Virus record (IMG/VR): IMGVR_UViG_3300025879_000099
Location: 1-24,680 of that record
Direction: 5' to 3' (one strand)
Source: a virus
Length of the DNA: 24,680 nt
The notes under the pieces were generated by a model, which had not been told where the DNA came from, did not search any database, and saw only the letters and a program-made list of their open reading frames with translations. The translations under genes were made by a program, and so were the position numbers. Shown here piece by piece: positions 3,276 to 17,880 of the stretch. Position 1 is the stretch's first letter; every line of letters begins with the position of its first letter.

Positions 3276-3803
3276 CTATTTGGTTTTATAGTTATCTTTA
3301 TCGAAACTCATTCTTATATTTTTCTTTATATTATTTATATCCTTGGTTATATGGATTCTGTTGATGTTATAGTATCTACTCATCTCTCTTTGAGAGTCAC
3401 CTGATATAAAGTGTTTCTCTGCTATGGTTCGTTCATATACTGGTAGATTGCCAATATATAATTTTACATCCTTAGATAGTTTTTCTGTATCCTCATGTAT
3501 TTCTATATTATCTTCTACTCCCTCCATTATATCATCGTTTATTTCTACCGATTTTAGTAAGGTCTTTTTGTATTGGTTATAGAATGGAGATGAGCCTGAG
3601 TTGTATTGTATATGTACCATCTTTACGATATAGTGTTGCACTTTATCATCTTCTACTATCTTGTTAGTATAATCACTACCCTTTTCTAGTAGGTTTAAGA
3701 TACAGTCTTGTAGTAAATCTTCTGTATCTTGATGGTTTCTCGTTACTGCTTTTACCTTTTGGAGTATTTCGGTATAGTGCTGTTCTATATAGTTTCCTAT
3801 CAT
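3276..3803 (-). CDS. Sigma-70-like (ECF-type) RNA polymerase factor, divergent
   Basis: The protein, 175 aa from the start chosen here, has two regions placed as in small sigma factors. A region-2-like helix with NHQDTEDLLQDCILNLLEKG lies near residues 23-42 (compare the DAEDLxQDxFL signature). A region-4-like HTH lies near the C-terminus, LPVYERTIAEKHFISGDSQR followed by EMSRYYNINRIHITKDI. Such factors redirect host RNA polymerase to phage promoters. The open frame extends to 3863, but that start would fall inside the terminator of the fibre gene. The ATG at 3803, preceded by AAAGGAAAAGG, is preferred. It is the first gene after that terminator, which suits a separately controlled regulator. 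The sequence is divergent, so a non-sigma DNA-binding role remains possible. Confidence 0.6.
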   Translation of the reverse strand: MIGNYIEQHYTEILQKVKAVTRNHQDTEDLLQDCILNLLEKGSDYTNKIVEDDKVQHYIVKMVHIQYNSGSSPFYNQYKKTLLKSVEINDDIMEGVEDNIEIHEDTEKLSKDVKLYIGNLPVYERTIAEKHFISGDSQREMSRYYNINRIHITKDINNIKKNIRMSFDKDNYKTK

Positions 3804-3825
3804 TATTACCTTTTCCTTTAAGTAT

Positions 3826-3837
3826 AAGTATATACTT
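3826..3837. promoter_or_regulatory. 12-bp perfect palindrome upstream of the sigma-like gene
   Basis: AAGTATATACTT is a perfect dyad 22 bp ahead of the preferred start codon at 3803, between it and the fibre-gene terminator. Part of it is repeated just to the left (AAGTAT again at 3820-3825). Its location in the only space available for a promoter of the sigma-like gene suggests an operator. The AT-only core makes chance occurrence in this genome quite possible. Confidence 0.3.
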
Positions 3838-3851
3838 TTTGTATTTAACGT

Positions 3852-3883
3852 AAAAAACCCCATAGATTTTTTCTATGGGGTTT
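3852..3883 (-). terminator. Rho-independent terminator after the fibre gene
   Basis: On the minus strand, a 12-bp stem (AAACCCCATAGA pairing with TCTATGGGGTTT, 3872-3883 with 3855-3866) encloses a 5-nt A loop and runs directly into a T tract (3857-3852). It begins 20 bp beyond the stop of the 752-aa fibre gene and ends the virion-gene transcription unit. It also separates that unit from the sigma-like gene. Confidence 0.9.
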
Positions 3884-3903: not shown

Positions 3904-6162
3904 TTATACTAAACTTACTGCTCTCCATGCACCATCATAGAAGTATAATGCTGAACCTGATACTGCAAGTTCTCCAACTACTCCACTTGGTAGTGGGTCT
4001 TGTGCAACCATTTTGAGAGTTTCTGTAATTTGAACTGTTCCGTTGAGGTTTACATCAACTCCTACTAATCCACCAAGAGTTGCATTATTTACTTCTACTT
4101 TATTAGTTCCAGTTCCATCTTTAACTTGGAAAGTAGCACCTGGTGCTGCATTAGTTCCATTTATAGTTTGATTACCAGTTAAAGTAGCATCACCATCGTT
4201 TAATAAATTACCATTTACTATTACATCAGCTCCAGTTAAACCTGCTAATGTTGCATTTTGGACTTGTAATCTTGGTGTGTTGTTTCCATCTTTAACTGTT
4301 AAAGTAGAACCTGGTGAAGTATTAGTTCCATTCACCACACCATTTTTATCAAGGGTTGTATCGTTATTTAGATTTATCCCAAATACTGCATCAACTGCTA
4401 CTAAACCATTTGCTTGTATGTTAAAATTACCTGTTGAAAGAAACTTACTATTGGGTGCGTTAAATACTACTCCTGCTTGTCCATCACTAAACTTTCCAAC
4501 AAACTCTACTGTATTACTACCTGAACTAATAATAAATTTATTATCAGCAATACCCAATGAACCAGTTGCAGATATATTACCAGCAACAAATTGATTACCA
4601 TTTACTATTACATCAACTCCGGTCAATCCACTTAATGTTGCATTGTTTACTTGTAATCTTGGTGTGTTGTTTCCATCTCTTACATCTAATGTAGAACCTG
4701 GTATAGTATTAGTTCCACCCACAAATACATCATCTGCAAATGAAGTTGAACCAGATACGATTACATTTCCACTTGTTTTGAGGTTTAGAATATTCTGTGC
4801 CTCTATATTAGTAGAGTTGATTGCATAATGATTCCAATTGGATACTACTGTGTTATATGCTGCTGCCTTAATGTTAAAGTTGTCTACATACTTACCTACT
4901 GAACCCAATTCAATAAGACTTGCACTTGGTGCGTTTATATCACCTAATAAAGTTTGATTACCAGTTAAAGTAGCATCTCCATCATTTAGTAGATTACCAT
5001 TTATTACTACATCAGCTCCTGTTATACCTGCTAATGTTGCATTTTGGACTTGTAATCTTGGTGTGTTGTTTCCATCTTTAACTGTTAAAGTAGAACTTGG
5101 TATAGTATTGGTTCCTTGTATGATTTCATCACCAGTAAAGGTATTGGAACCAGTAGTAGCAAATGAACCTGTATCTATACTACTACCGAATGAACCAGTT
5201 GATACTTGTTGTGGAACTCCATTAACATCTCCTACCCATACATTACCTTCTGTGATGTTAGGTAAAGTTGTATGTAATTGATTAATAAAGTATCCTGCTC
5301 CATTGTTTCCTGGTCTTGATACTACACCCAATACTTGAATGTCTGCAGAACCCGTTGGTCTTGTTGCAGTCCATCCACCATTAGTTCCAAGATAAACTAT
5401 ATCTCCTGATTGTAAAGTTCCTACATCTATACTATCTATTAAACCTGCAATCAACCCTAAACCATTTCCATTTGCAGAAATGTTCTCACTTGCAATAAGT
5501 GTTGCTGGGAATCTATTTGGATTACTATTATCTGCTAAGTAAACATCTACTCTATCGCCTGTGTTAGAATCAACATATAATGCTTGTCCTCTTTGTATCT
5601 CAAATGCTTCTCGGTTTTTGATTTCTTCATACATTGATTTCACATACTGAAAGGATAAGTTCCCTGCTCCATCAGTTTGTAAGAATGATTTATCACCGTT
5701 ATCCGTATAGGTTGTATCTTCTAGTACTATCTGTGAACTTCCACTTACCAATCCACTTGGTAAAGTTGGAATTGGTAGGTTAGTCAATCCACTACCATCT
5801 CCTATGAATGAACCAGTAAAGTTAGAACCACCCGTTACATATCCGTGATTACCTGCTTGTATTCTACCTACATAGTTAGTTATATCACCCGCATATTGTT
5901 CATACTGTGAATTTACAAATATACCACCGTTGAATGAATTAGCACCTGTAAAGGTGTTAGAACCAGTAGTTGCATATTTTGGATTTAGATTATCTATTCC
6001 ACTACCATCACCAACGAATGATGATGATACGGACCCACTTATGGTTACACCATCTATGGGGTTTCCAAGACCATCTACTAAATTACCAGTATCTGTATCC
6101 TTTTGTAGTAGTTGTTGGAATGAACTACTGATTGTTTGGTTTGTTAAATTGTAATTTGCCAT
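3904..6162 (-). CDS. Phage tail fibre / receptor-binding structural protein with internal repeats
   Basis: This 752-aa, Gly/Thr/Asn/Ser-rich protein has the low-complexity beta-rich composition of tail fibres. Two motifs of the fibre type GDGSGLTNL occur (about residues 52-60 and 122-130), with ATTGSNTFTG spacers near residues 65 and 335. The C-terminal half has four copies of a ~60-130-residue unit starting GTNTxPxSTLxVKDGNNTPR (about 349, 482, 611, 669), each followed by LQVxNATLxGLTGxDVxxNGN. The protein ends with a short aromatic strand (ALYFYDGAWRAVSLV), and no S74 intramolecular chaperone domain is present. The gene follows the connector gene by 15 nt, has AGAGGACA before ATG, and is last in the virion operon. 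A fibre or whisker is favoured; the receptor is unknown. Confidence 0.75.
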   Translation of the reverse strand: MANYNLTNQTISSSFQQLLQKDTDTGNLVDGLGNPIDGVTISGSVSSSFVGDGSGIDNLNPKYATTGSNTFTGANSFNGGIFVNSQYEQYAGDITNYVGRIQAGNHGYVTGGSNFTGSFIGDGSGLTNLPIPTLPSGLVSGSSQIVLEDTTYTDNGDKSFLQTDGAGNLSFQYVKSMYEEIKNREAFEIQRGQALYVDSNTGDRVDVYLADNSNPNRFPATLIASENISANGNGLGLIAGLIDSIDVGTLQSGDIVYLGTNGGWTATRPTGSADIQVLGVVSRPGNNGAGYFINQLHTTLPNITEGNVWVGDVNGVPQQVSTGSFGSSIDTGSFATTGSNTFTGDEIIQGTNTIPSSTLTVKDGNNTPRLQVQNATLAGITGADVVINGNLLNDGDATLTGNQTLLGDINAPSASLIELGSVGKYVDNFNIKAAAYNTVVSNWNHYAINSTNIEAQNILNLKTSGNVIVSGSTSFADDVFVGGTNTIPGSTLDVRDGNNTPRLQVNNATLSGLTGVDVIVNGNQFVAGNISATGSLGIADNKFIISSGSNTVEFVGKFSDGQAGVVFNAPNSKFLSTGNFNIQANGLVAVDAVFGINLNNDTTLDKNGVVNGTNTSPGSTLTVKDGNNTPRLQVQNATLAGLTGADVIVNGNLLNDGDATLTGNQTINGTNAAPGATFQVKDGTGTNKVEVNNATLGGLVGVDVNLNGTVQITETLKMVAQDPLPSGVVGELAVSGSALYFYDGAWRAVSLV
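4139..5117. repeat. Direct repeats inside the fibre gene
   Basis: Two ~166-bp blocks, 4166-4331 and 4952-5117, are close to identical at the DNA level. They share the run GTTTGATTACCAGTTAAAGT at their left ends and the same text through the codons for the VKDGNNTPRLQVQNATLAG unit. A more diverged third copy lies near 4585-4718 and a fourth near 4070-4158. The near-identity at silent positions points to recent duplication or gene conversion. This could let the fibre gain or lose repeat units by recombination. Confidence 0.85.
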
Positions 6163-9134: not shown

Positions 9135-10049
9135 TTATAAGTTGTTAGTTACCCAGAATTCAGGGTATGCAACTTGAACCCCTAGCTTTGTCACTATACG
9201 GTGTTTCAATTGGTCACTGTTTATATCGTAAAACAATTGGAAGTTATCTAAATCACTTACTAAATCCGTACCTACTACGATTTGTCTTGCAGGTCCAGTT
9301 ACGATTCTATCGCTTCCTTGTAATCCTACTGTTCCTACGATTGTTAGGTTAGCGAATGGGTGTCTCATAGAAAGTAAAGAACCTCTGTTTTCTACTGCAG
9401 CTGGGTCAAAGTAGAAGTTGTTAGTTTTTCTTAACCATACAATATATTTACGGAAGTTAGCTACTGATAAGAAAGTAGTTAAATCGTCTCTATCTTGTAC
9501 ATCTACGTTTAATGATTCTAATTGTAAATCGATTTGGTCACCGATATTATCACTTGTTGGTACAGAAGATGATACAAAAAGAGCACCAGAACCTGAAGCT
9601 AATAAAGTATTTAATCCTACTGAACAATCACCAGCTGCAGTTGTTGCAGTCCAGATGAATTGGTCATTCTTCTTTTGGAAGTTTGCAACCAGTTGGCTCG
9701 CATACTCTTCTACGAATGCGAAAGTCTCCGGATATGAACCTTGTGGGCCAAGTAATCCAATATACTTTTGGTCTAAATCTTTAAGACATAAACCATCGAA
9801 AGATGTTCTTGTACATACTTCGATGTCTCTTTGAGAGTAAGTTACTGAACCAGATGGAGTAGATACACATGTATTACCATCTTGGATTACTAGATCAATT
9901 TCTTGTAGGTTGATCGGTTGTTTGTATTTAATTCCTTCGGTTACTGTTACATACTCAGCTGTTGAGCCTGCCATTACCGATTTTACGATAAGTTCACCTG
10001 CTAGTTCATTGTTAAATGCATCTAATGCGGCTACGTTAAATCCTGCCAT
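9135..10049 (-). CDS. Major capsid protein
   Basis: This 304-aa protein follows a scaffold-like and a protease gene and has the composition of a capsid protein (Val/Ala/Thr/Asn-rich, few Lys). Visible elements include KYKQPINLQEIDLVIQDGNT, a Cys cluster (CTRTSFDGLCLKDLDQKYIG), EEYASQLVANFQKKNDQFIW (an N-terminal helix region) and SVANFRKYIVWLRKTNNFYF. FANLTIVGTVGLQGSDRIVT and the final VTKLGVQVAYPEFWVTNNL complete it. The order helix, loop, then a C-terminal strand set is what an HK97-type fold would give. Position and length are the main support; no close sequence comparison was possible. AAGGAAATAAAATT precedes the ATG, a leader like that of the tube-like gene. Confidence 0.82.
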   Translation of the reverse strand: MAGFNVAALDAFNNELAGELIVKSVMAGSTAEYVTVTEGIKYKQPINLQEIDLVIQDGNTCVSTPSGSVTYSQRDIEVCTRTSFDGLCLKDLDQKYIGLLGPQGSYPETFAFVEEYASQLVANFQKKNDQFIWTATTAAGDCSVGLNTLLASGSGALFVSSSVPTSDNIGDQIDLQLESLNVDVQDRDDLTTFLSVANFRKYIVWLRKTNNFYFDPAAVENRGSLLSMRHPFANLTIVGTVGLQGSDRIVTGPARQIVVGTDLVSDLDNFQLFYDINSDQLKHRIVTKLGVQVAYPEFWVTNNL

Positions 10050-13862: not shown

Positions 13863-13936
13863 ACTCTTTTATATTTTTTTTTCTATATTGGTATAAATAA
13901 GTTTAACCACCTGAGGTTTTTTCATATAGTATAGTA

Positions 13937-13974
13937 GAGTGGGTTTTCTTGATTACCTTTCATTTTTCCCACTC
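13937..13974. repeat. 7-bp inverted repeat upstream of the tape-measure gene
   Basis: GAGTGGG (13937-13943) and CCCACTC (13968-13974) are perfect inverted copies around a 24-nt T-rich spacer, 75 bp upstream of the tape-measure start. As leader RNA of that gene it could form a hairpin. Its role is unknown; the arms stand out in AT-rich DNA. Confidence 0.45.
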
Positions 13975-14006
13975 GTGCTATTTTTATAGTTTTACTATAT
14001 AGAAAC

Positions 14007-14050
14007 AAGGGGACAATGGTTTATGGTATTCTTCATTTAGTCCCCTTTTT
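14007..14050 (+). terminator. Terminator-like hairpin whose loop carries a 15-nt repeat arm
   Basis: AAGGGGAC (14007-14014) pairs perfectly with GTCCCCTT (14040-14047), and on the plus strand T residues continue to 14050. The 25-nt loop contains the left copy of a 15-bp inverted repeat (14015-14029). On the minus strand there is no proper T tract, so rightward termination or attenuation is the more natural reading. No rightward gene lies upstream, so it would end only a short leader or antisense RNA. Confidence 0.5.
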
Positions 14051-14181
14051 CACGTCTTGTTGTTACCTTATTTAGACTCATTCTAAATAGTATTTAGACT
14101 CATTATAAATTACACTATTTTATCTATTTTTTTTTACGTTTTGCTTAGAACCTTCTATTTATTACTATACCATAAACCATT
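14015..14181. repeat. 15-bp perfect inverted repeat flanking a 137-bp segment
   Basis: AATGGTTTATGGTAT (14015-14029) and ATACCATAAACCATT (14167-14181) are exact inverted copies. The centre of the pair (about 14098) falls in the tandem operator-like repeat. In a stretch this size and composition an exact 15-bp pair is not expected by chance (a rough count gives far fewer than one). It could be the pair of ends of an invertible segment, a long-range RNA pairing, or a protein-binding pair; the sequence does not decide. Confidence 0.8.
14069..14112. promoter_or_regulatory. Two tandem 22-bp operator-like repeats
   Basis: TATTTAGACTCATTCTAAAT (from 14069) is repeated from 14091 with one base changed (C to A). 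Each unit holds the dyad ATTTAG-N7-CTAAAT, perfect in the first copy and one mismatch in the second. The junction also makes CTAAATA-G-TATTTAG (14083-14097). A 22-bp period is close to two helical turns, so two dimers would bind the same DNA face. The site lies between divergent transcription units. Confidence 0.6.
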
Positions 14182-14236
14182 AAATACATTAAACCACACT
14201 AATACATTCATTTACCCGATTATCTCTGGTGGCGGG

Positions 14237-14245
14237 TTATCCACC
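14237..14245 (+). promoter_or_regulatory. DnaA-box-like sequence TTATCCACC
   Basis: The site matches the consensus TTATCCACA at 8 of 9 positions. It lies in the largest non-coding gap, next to AT-rich DNA and an 8-bp direct repeat AATACATT (14183-14190 and 14201-14208). A single box is weak evidence, and the same bases form one arm of a small RNA hairpin. Confidence 0.3.
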
Positions 14246-14570
14246 TAAAACATTCATCCGTAGTGTCCTGATTCATATAGTAAATGAATCCTCTTAGCCA
14301 AACGAAGCAGTTGGGGAAGAGTCGTGAGTGGGGGGAACATCTTTGGCCTGTAAGAGGTATGTTAGTGTTTGTAACGGAGACAGTAAGGGACGTTAAGTAA
14401 ATTAAGTATAGGGGGTAGAATCTCCACCTTTTTTTAACCCTGAATCATCCCTTTAATAAAGAACTTGCATCTAATTACTACTATACTATCAGTTGTGTTA
14501 GATGTTGGGAACCCACCTAGGGTTCCTCATCAACTATACTCACTCACAGATTTAGAAAAAAGAGTATCTA

Positions 14571-14615
14571 CCTCGTACTAATCAGTTATTCCTTACGAGG
14601 TTTATAACTTTTTCT
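14571..14615 (+). terminator. Terminator-like hairpin before the rightward promoter
   Basis: CCTCGTA (14571-14577) and TACGAGG (14594-14600) form a 7-bp stem around a 16-nt loop. TTTATAACTTTTTC follows on the plus strand. It would end the candidate RNA 8 bp before the -33 element of the next promoter. The long loop and interrupted T tract lower confidence. Confidence 0.5.
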
Positions 14616-14622
14616 ATAAAGA

Positions 14623-14654
14623 TTTGGATATATCAGTATTTATTCGTATCTTTA
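14623..14654 (+). promoter_or_regulatory. Bacteroidota-type promoter for the rightward genes
   Basis: TTTG (14623-14626), a 20-nt spacer and TATCTTTA (14647-14654) match the Bacteroidota housekeeping consensus TTTG-N19/20-TAnnTTTG at all but the last base. Transcription should start near 14660, giving a ~25-nt A/T-rich leader before the ATG at 14685. It is the best promoter seen in the window and a main reason for proposing a Bacteroidota host. Confidence 0.7.
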
Positions 14655-14684
14655 CATTATATAAATTATTAAATAGCAACACTT

Positions 14685-16051: not shown

Positions 16052-16712
16052 TTCCCCAATTAAATCTGTTAGTATCTGCGTTCTTACCCCACCAATCCAT
16101 ATCTTGTTTATGTAATTCAGTTAGTACTGGTATTAGTTCGTGGTGAGCTGAGGTTGCTGATATATTACTATCTTTCATTGGTAGCCCTTTTAGTGCCTTA
16201 CATGGCACAGGGTTCATATGGAACTGCCAAGTATCACCATAGTATAGTTTTAGTTCTTCAGGTACTGGTACCCAATTATGTTTATCAAAGAAGATTGCAC
16301 ATCCCCATCCATAGTTGTGGTGGGGTATATCTATTATCTCGTAGTTCTTTTCGGTAGTAGTATAGTTATCTTGATGCATACCAAGTATTCCTATCTTCTC
16401 ACTAAAATATAGTATATAATCAAAGACATCTGTATCATATAGTATATCATCATTCACTATTCCTATTAAGGATTGTTCACTACATGCTTCTACTCCTATA
16501 TTCCACGCTTTATTCACCACCCATTCATTATATGTTGGTGGTTGATATACTCTCCACTTACCGAGTGGGAACCTATTGGGATAGTGTTTATGGAACTCTT
16601 TTGCATTATCTATAATATGAACTGCTGATACTAAATCATTCTCATCATATCTCTTCAGCATCTCATGTATATGTGGAGATTTCCACAGAGTTGGTATTAC
16701 TATTTCTATCAT
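16044..16712 (-). CDS. Glycosyltransferase, GT-A fold (GT2-like)
   Basis: The protein (222 aa from the ATG at 16712) starts IEIVIPTLWKSPHIHEMLKR, the opening strand and loop of GT-A enzymes. A donor-site D-D motif, IGIVNDDILYDTD, lies near the middle (about residues 82-94). GWGCAIFFDKHNWVPVPEEL and YYGDTWQFHM follow in the acceptor part. Such enzymes transfer sugars from nucleotide-sugars. A longer frame begins at 16745, but the ATG at 16712 overlaps the bS21 stop as ATGA (16709-16712) and gives the better start. The 3' end overlaps the SGNH gene by 8 nt, so GT and hydrolase are coupled. Substrate and acceptor cannot be deduced. Confidence 0.75.
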   Translation of the reverse strand: MIEIVIPTLWKSPHIHEMLKRYDENDLVSAVHIIDNAKEFHKHYPNRFPLGKWRVYQPPTYNEWVVNKAWNIGVEACSEQSLIGIVNDDILYDTDVFDYILYFSEKIGILGMHQDNYTTTEKNYEIIDIPHHNYGWGCAIFFDKHNWVPVPEELKLYYGDTWQFHMNPVPCKALKGLPMKDSNISATSAHHELIPVLTELHKQDMDWWGKNADTNRFNWGNE

Positions 16713-16924
16713 CCGTTCTCTTGTTTGTATCTTTGTTCTGCCCATTGTTGGGTTCTTATAGCATCCTTCTTCATCTTTCTATTTACTACTGATGGTTTTA
16801 GGTATTGTTTCCTTTCGCGTAATTCCTCTAAGTGTCCAGATTCTATAACTTTTGATTTCCATTTTTTTAACGCAACTTGGATGTTTCCTTTTATCACTTT
16901 TACGTGTGCCTTACTGTTTTTCAT
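16709..16924 (-). CDS. rpsU: Phage-encoded ribosomal protein bS21
   Basis: The 71-residue product matches bS21 over its core: VKVIKGNIQVALKKWKSKV, then ESGHLEELRERKQYLKPSV and VNRKMKKDAIR. The ALKxxKxKVxxSGxLxELRxRxxYxKPSVxxRxKK pattern is diagnostic. The C-terminus is shortened and basic. bS21 sits on the 30S platform near the anti-Shine-Dalgarno sequence, and it is the ribosomal protein most often carried by phages. In Bacteroidota it helps hide that sequence, so a phage copy could shift which messages are translated. The frame can also start at a TTG at 16942, 12 nt after GAGGT, but the ATG at 16924 is preferred because it leaves only a short extension before the core. It lies between two glycosyltransferase genes. 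Confidence 0.9.
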   Translation of the reverse strand: MKNSKAHVKVIKGNIQVALKKWKSKVIESGHLEELRERKQYLKPSVVNRKMKKDAIRTQQWAEQRYKQENG

Positions 16925-16929
16925 ATCTT

Positions 16930-17880
16930 TTATATTAAGCAACTTGTTTTCCCTACCTCTTGTACTATCTTATAGTATTCATATCCTGCTAGGGTTGTAT
17001 CTATATCTTTTATCTCATCTCCATAGGGTAGTATTCCATTATCATATTTTCCCTTGAAGAACCTATCTGTTTGGTTTCCTAAAACTCCAGCATTGTGGTA
17101 GAATCCATATGTTTCCCAATCCTTTATTGGATTGGTATAGAACATAAAGTTGAATTCCTCTGGTACTGCAGTTAATCTACCATACTTCCAGGCCATCCAT
17201 AGTTCTGCCCACATAGACATAGTCCAATGTTGTAGTGGATGGTAGGATTCTCCTTTTTCTTTTTTCTCTGCACCTATTTTATTGGATACTACTGGTACTT
17301 CCTTCCATAGTTTTAGTTGGAGTTCATATACATCTTTCCAATACTTGGGTGGTACATTCTTAATTAGTTTTTGTGCTCCTCCACTTCCACCTTGATTTCT
17401 TCTTACGAACGATTTATCTATCTCAGCAATCTCACACATCTTATCTAAAACTTCCTCTCCTTTTGAGGAGATATATTCTGCACCTATATACGAGATAGTA
17501 TCACTTAAATACCATATACTATCATGTAAGAAAGGTTCCATATCGAATGGTTTAGTAAAGACGAAGTCACTATCGTGGAAAAATACATATTCCTTTTCCA
17601 TTAGTGGATTACTTATCCAATGTTTGTAGAGTAGATGTGCTTGGATAGATGGTTGGTAGTTGTTTTGTTCTCTTGTATCTTGGTAGAAGAAGAACTGAAC
17701 TCCTGGAAAGTTCTTAACTAATTTCTTCCATTCTAAGGGTATTTCTTTCCAACTTGGTACTAATCCTTGGACTAGTTGTATTTGTTGAGGAGCAACCCCC
17801 ATATTTAGAAAGTTGGTTATATATACCTCTGCCTCCCACGCAAAACGTGGGATAGCAGGTTGGCAACTTAAATAAATCAT
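16930..17880 (-). CDS. Putative glycosyltransferase with DxD motif
   Basis: This 316-aa protein opens MIYLSCQPAIPRFAWEAEVY, as in GT-A-like enzymes, and has HDSD at residues 102-105 in EYVFFHDSDFVFTKPF, where D103-x-D105 fits the metal/donor-binding motif. NQGGSGGAQKLI (about 162-173) and PLQHWTMSMWAELW (about 217-230) are further conserved-looking segments. The many Trp and Tyr residues suit sugar binding. No membrane segment is visible, so it should act in the cytoplasm. It begins a cluster with bS21, a second GT and the SGNH hydrolase. Role: modification of phage structural proteins or of host glycans; both fit, and neither is shown. Confidence 0.65.
   Translation of the reverse strand: MIYLSCQPAIPRFAWEAEVYITNFLNMGVAPQQIQLVQGLVPSWKEIPLEWKKLVKNFPGVQFFFYQDTREQNNYQPSIQAHLLYKHWISNPLMEKEYVFFHDSDFVFTKPFDMEPFLHDSIWYLSDTISYIGAEYISSKGEEVLDKMCEIAEIDKSFVRRNQGGSGGAQKLIKNVPPKYWKDVYELQLKLWKEVPVVSNKIGAEKKEKGESYHPLQHWTMSMWAELWMAWKYGRLTAVPEEFNFMFYTNPIKDWETYGFYHNAGVLGNQTDRFFKGKYDNGILPYGDEIKDIDTTLAGYEYYKIVQEVGKTSCLI

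Follow-up and report, generated by a model that had tools for sequence, protein, structure and literature searches.

The DNA analysed here, a virus record of 24,680 bases (IMGVR_UViG_3300025879_000099, positions 1 to 24,680), is referred to as the window. It contains a phage structural gene set, with matches to portal, prohead protease and tape-measure proteins, and a 304-aa product (9135-10049) is taken as the capsid protein on the basis of its position. An 822-nt non-coding gap (13863-14684) is flanked by the tape-measure gene on the minus strand and a 145-aa open reading frame (ORF) on the plus strand. No match to the product of this ORF was found in Pfam or PHROGs. A structured RNA element occupies the right half of the gap. 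A preliminary description had placed a candidate structured RNA at 14226-14615, bounds that need revision, as the conserved element actually covers approximately 14215-14466. The stretch is, as had been described, non-coding and exceeds its flanks in GC and G content, with a GC fraction of 0.43 at 14201-14400 compared to 0.27-0.28 before it. The location at a divergent transcription switch holds in the window but not in the three other contigs with the RNA (L031, L048 and L049), where it is found elsewhere, on the same strand as the genes that follow.

Relatives of the window were gathered via the tape-measure and capsid proteins, and one of these, L031, gave a match to the RNA region at approximately 75-78% nucleotide identity. 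Three separate conserved blocks were scanned against 2.9 million viral contigs. As a result, L031, L048 and L049 were identified as true members, along with an identical twin of the window. A variant of one block that required an exact match was present only in L031 and this twin, and not in L048 or L049. L050 and L051, with one exact block each, were single-block coincidences and were not included as members, and three matches from two further genome-contig pattern scans were non-homologous and did not match the covariance model. The conserved core corresponds to 14213-14445 (plus strand), with weaker conservation to about 14466, and the cores of the three other IMG/VR contigs are 75-77% identical to that of the window at the nucleotide level. 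Covariance-model scores were 254-285 bits for all four members. The 5′ boundary is sharp, similarity being lost just upstream of the first pseudoknot strand, and on the 3′ side similarity fades around 14466. Neither a blastn search (50,697 phage records, 72,556 plasmids) nor a covariance-model search of 395 sampled Bacteroidota genomes, which seldom hold lytic phages, gave a match. Among 21 contigs searched whole, four carry the RNA, each in one copy. The features of the locus are as follows.

14134-14162, plus strand: promoter-like element TTAYGTTT-N13/14-TATTTAT, conserved in five related contigs
14215-14466, plus strand: structured RNA element, delimited by identity, covariation and covariance-model scores
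14215-14245, plus strand: 5′ H-type pseudoknot, 5 of 9 pairs double-changed, kept in all four members
14215-14218/14233-14236, plus strand: pseudoknot stem S1, CCCG/CGGG
14228-14232/14241-14245, plus strand: pseudoknot stem S2, GGUGG/CCACC
14254-14261 with 14374-14380, plus strand: probable long-range helix P2, UCaUCCGU/ACGGAGA, invariant in all four members
14263-14269 with 14333-14340, plus strand: probable helix P3, GUGUCCU/GGGAACAU
14270-14290, plus strand: hairpin P4, 7 bp, 3 double-changed pairs, 100% paired
14291-14321, plus strand: hairpin P5, two 4-bp segments, 3 double-changed pairs, abutting P4
14346-14358, plus strand: small hairpin P6, one pair with a kept one-sided change, the rest invariant
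14386-14441, plus strand: 3′ domain, in which P7 (14386-14389/14438-14441) encloses P8 (14401-14434)
14467-14615, plus strand: non-conserved tail, unaligned in relatives, whose hairpins are specific to the window, the final one lying at about 14570-14602
14624-14653, plus strand: Bacteroidota-type promoter TTGGATATAT...GTATCTTT of the downstream gene, a motif that recurs in L031 and L048
14685-15122, plus strand: 145-aa ORF that follows the RNA, function unknown

The secondary structure was examined on an alignment of the four sequences (A4), on which 56 pairs were set out by hand. This structure was partly derived from the same sequences on which the following counts were made: 98.2% of the pair cells were standard, and changes on both sides were found in 14 of the 56 pairs (18 cells). 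On no measure did any of 500 shuffles equal the observed value. When the partners were slid by 1-3 columns as a control, only 33-46% of the cells paired (maximum 45.5%). A hold-out fold, predicted with RNAalifold from L031, L048 and L049 alone, comprised 60 pairs. The window retains 55, including six through double changes specific to it. This examines the fold and not the alignment, as the window was part of A4. Compensatory changes in homologous sequences, which the preliminary description had named as a check, are thus present both in the A4 counts and in the hold-out fold. Read as plus-strand RNA, 218 of the 222 cells pair, compared with 201 when read as the minus strand. Since there are 17 G-U cells and no A-C cells, the plus strand should correspond to the RNA, as had been claimed.

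The helices best supported by these data are the pseudoknot stems, P4 and P5, and P7 more weakly, with one window-specific double change. The hairpin at 14270-14290 (P4) was correctly recognized beforehand and covaries in A4; its loop, AUAGUAA (14277-14283), is invariant. A second hairpin directly adjoining position 14290 had also been predicted and covaries, but it extends over 14291-14321 rather than 14291-14356. The pseudoknot, P2, P3 and P7 had been overlooked. P2 and P3 are probable but not proven: P2 shows no variation, changes in P3 affect a single side, and the P3 region is paired differently in the hold-out fold; with only four members, the two helices rest on invariance, not covariation. 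Five base pairs of P2 are also predicted from the other three sequences alone. In P3, two one-sided changes keep pairing (GU/GC and UG/UA) and the rest is invariant; it is the least certain of the inner helices. P8a is 89% paired and is partly broken in the window. P8b of the window resembles a terminator (GGGGGTAGAATCTCC-ACC-T7, 14411-14435), and the T-run is missing from L031, L048 and L049. Unpaired segments that are invariant or nearly so include AAACAUUCA, AUAGUAA, UCGURAGUGGG and UUAGUGU.

As for a coding explanation, the four members have no reading frame in common that runs uninterrupted through the core. All plus-strand frames of all members contain stops, and a minus-strand ORF common to L031 and L049 does not stay open over the whole core in every member. 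A Shine-Dalgarno-like AGGAGGU is present in three of the four RNAs, with AGGGGGU in the window (A4 columns 199-205, approximately 14410-14416). A mini-ORF behind this motif in the 3′ domain was dropped, as the window lacks the ATG.

Folding energy gave a different picture. A comparison with dinucleotide shuffles had been named as a further check, and for 14200-14620 on the plus strand the z-score was -0.77, with 20 of 100 shuffles folding as well. Judged by energy alone, the claim of an RNA would fail. The core by itself (z +1.3) is less stable than the shuffle mean, and the cores of the relatives range from -0.24 to +0.68. Strong folding is found elsewhere, at 13863-14197 and 14446-14620 (both about -3.6, the latter -3.55), neither of which is the conserved RNA. 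The energy z-scores carry no information for the core, and a shuffle-energy test on its own would have thrown out a real RNA. An energy no better than that of shuffles, and the position a few kb upstream of the terminase genes in L048 and L049, would fit a reading in which the similarity is due to chance or to a DNA-level site such as a recombination hot spot or packaging site. However, compensatory changes and 17 G-U against no A-C cells fit RNA and not double-stranded DNA, the element of the window lies about 14 kb from a terS-like gene (116-454), and other relatives do not have it. We consider this explanation very improbable, and that of a conserved folded RNA hardly open to doubt.

The element does not include the tail. 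A terminator-like hairpin had been described as its end, but 14467-14615 is not conserved with the RNA. Likewise, the 9-bp pairing between a loop and the tail (14324-14332/14539-14547) is present in the window but is not conserved; the best matches in relatives are unrelated and only 6-7 bp long. The promoter expected next after the RNA was indeed found: the element at 14624-14653 is promoter-like, and the corresponding motif, TTGGAnAT...GTATCTTT, is situated directly 3′ of the RNA in the window, L031 and L048. The terminator hairpin said to precede it is the part that is not conserved.

With respect to the start of transcription, the TTAYGTTT-N13/14-TATTTAT element occurs once per contig in five related contigs, in the same gap and the same direction (window 14134-14162 (plus); L005 5730, L030 5247, L035 4952 and L040 1158, all minus), with variants in L017 and L026. 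It faces away from the tape-measure gene, towards the position taken by the RNA. Because of this conservation, we infer that 14134-14162 is likely to be the promoter of the RNA in the window phage. In terms of the Bacteroidota promoter consensus, L049 has a promoter of this type (TTG-N20-TATATTTG) ending 4 nt before the conserved 5′ end. It is the only contig with a clear promoter adjoining the 5′ end of the RNA, and none was recognized directly upstream of the RNA in L031.

In relatives without the RNA, other noncoding sequence lies downstream of the promoter-like element, which suggests a promoter with an exchangeable RNA cargo, the cargos of the relatives being noncoding sequences and putative RNAs. 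One could tentatively extend this to a gap upstream of the tape-measure operon that serves as a slot for RNA genes, in which the conserved promoter at 14134-14162 would drive any noncoding RNA exchanged into it. The RNA described here would then be one cargo of several, a ribozyme or host-takeover RNA that stands alone and moves between distantly related phages of Bacteroidota. We consider this broader scheme possible but doubtful. Several further elements were observed in this gap. The slot of L030 (4880-5215, minus) contains a hairpin-rich, G-rich stretch with a z-score of -2.0. A partly conserved element, TTGGTTCAGGTAAATCT, is found in the slots of L035 (4690-4880), L040 (890-1060) and L026 (500-640), with a diverged form in L023 (1-110), all on the minus strand. 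The window also has a 15-nt perfect inverted repeat (14015-14029/14167-14181) that joins the loop of a terminator-like hairpin (GGGGAC...GTCCCC) to sequence just past the promoter-like element, and the gap of L030 has an equivalent 12-nt repeat of other sequence (TAAAGATTACCC/GGGTAATCTTTA).

We considered whether the RNA is the 5′ UTR of the next gene, acting in cis as a riboswitch, an attenuator or an element of translation control. A same-strand ORF is present downstream in all four contigs, that of L049 starts about 80 nt past the core with no promoter found in between, and P8b of the window has its resemblance to a terminator. A leader is the main rival reading, and one that may apply to L049. 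On the other hand, the four ORFs are mutually non-homologous and without family matches, no homologue of the 145-aa ORF occurs behind the RNA in L031, L048 or L049, and there is thus no constant downstream gene family. A promoter motif separates the RNA from the ORF in three of the four contigs (window, L031 and L048), and the terminator-like T-run is missing in the other three members. The non-homologous ORFs and the intervening promoters argue that the RNA is independent of the next ORF; a leader role seems unlikely, and action in trans appears rather probable.

The RNA was compared with known families. Rfam 15 gave no match at the gathering thresholds, and at E<=10 the four members matched only chance families that differed from one member to another and did not consistently cover the core. 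No match at E<=10 was obtained for group I or II introns, HEARO, pistol or other ribozyme families, and none to the covariance models of GOLLD, ROOL, 6S-Flavo or Flavo-1. ARAGORN found no tRNA or tmRNA in the window, and a limited literature search revealed no description of this RNA. The absence of an Rfam match and the compensatory changes in the homologues uphold the earlier proposal of a novel structured RNA distinct from GOLLD and ROOL, and the element is best placed as a new family among the phage-borne structured RNAs of unknown function. GOLLD and ROOL RNAs are several hundred nt long, whereas the conserved unit here is about 230-250 nt and has its own layout with a 5′ H-type pseudoknot. 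It resembles them in kind, as both are reported as structured noncoding RNAs of phages and mobile elements without known function (cryo-EM study, PMC12286853). 6S-Flavo (RF01685), Flavo-1 (RF01705) and Bacteroidales-1 (RF01693) are noncoding RNAs of Bacteroidota (PMC2864571), the likely host phylum here, but they give no match at E<=10 and our model matches none of the 395 sampled genomes of the phylum. The manA and wcaG motifs are likewise structured RNAs of marine sequence and phages, including T4-like cyanophages (PMC2864571), whereas the RNA here precedes unrelated genes and has no Rfam match to them. A packaging role was considered from the position in L048 and L049, and the position in the window gives no support. 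The pRNA of phi29-like phages is a phage-encoded small structured RNA, a likeness that includes the location upstream of terminase genes in L048 and L049; unlike it, the RNA here has no Rfam match, and it coexists with terminase genes.

A self-acting mobile RNA or ribozyme, that is, an intron-like, guide-RNA-like or self-cleaving unit, would explain the sharp 5′ boundary, the differing positions and neighbours across contigs, and a pseudoknot combined with long invariant unpaired stretches. An HNH homing-endonuclease-like gene (NUMOD4 and HNH_3; 5353-5700, minus) is located just upstream of the RNA in L048. However, no nuclease, transposase or reverse transcriptase was recognized next to the element in the window, in L031 or in L049, and the single copy per contig and the lack of intron, HEARO or ribozyme matches also speak against such a unit, which we regard as improbable.

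The distribution of the RNA points to exchange between phages. G001, whose proteins are 85-94% identical to those of the window for most structural genes, does not have the RNA, and the same flanks enclose different sequence there. Between L031 and L049 the RNAs are 88.7% identical with capsid proteins only about 23% identical, while between L031 and the window the RNAs are 76.2% identical with capsid proteins 82% identical. Vertical descent alone would require opposite rates, and transfer of the RNA unit is therefore the simpler account and hard to replace with another; the argument concerns the amounts of divergence, as an unrooted four-taxon distance comparison does not on its own conflict with the protein grouping.

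Taken together, we favour, with a probability of roughly 60%, a noncoding RNA gene of a new family in marine-type phages, about 230-250 nt long, that is independently transcribed, horizontally exchanged and acts as a trans-acting accessory RNA with a host partner. That the RNA does a job is almost certain, because its shape is maintained through matched mutations in three further phage genomes, of which two are only distant relatives. Transcription would start at the conserved element and proceed away from the tape-measure operon, and in the folded product the 5′ pseudoknot would precede a closed domain of several helices, with long single-stranded segments that do not vary. Exchanged between phages, it may work in trans. 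A host partner is proposed as no phage gene was found whose presence and absence match those of the RNA. The invariant or nearly invariant unpaired segments suggest binding to such a partner. As a guess, this could be a protein of the host or one of its ribonucleoproteins (RNA polymerase or the ribosome, for example), bound during infection, an identification that we put forward as speculative and less likely than not. Certainty falls at each step from a conserved folded RNA, through action in trans, to this binding.

Families of structured RNA that are new and supported by covariation are usually signs of worthwhile biochemistry, including riboswitches, ribozymes and RNA-protein machines. The RNA here remains 75-89% identical across phages in which capsid protein identity can fall to about 22% of residues, and its apparent exchange independent of neighbours is the behaviour of host-takeover factors. 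Being small and having a sharply defined 5′ end, it lends itself directly to tests by transcription, probing and pull-down.

Some additional features of these phages were noted. The window encodes a homologue of ribosomal protein bS21 (16709-16942, minus; Pfam PF01165, 2.4e-11), also present in L031, G019 and G001. Sigma-factor-like genes (phrog_1740) are found in the window (3276-3863), L048 (2829-3389) and L049 (1000-1545), all on the minus strand, and could serve the unusual promoter elements of these phages. The minus-strand leader of the tape-measure operon contains a hairpin, GAGTGGG/CCCACTC (window 13935-13975), whose stem varies with pairing kept (GGTGGGG/CCCCACC in L017 and AGATGAG/CTCATCT in L030) and whose loop is similar across relatives, TACCTTTCAT-like on the plus strand.
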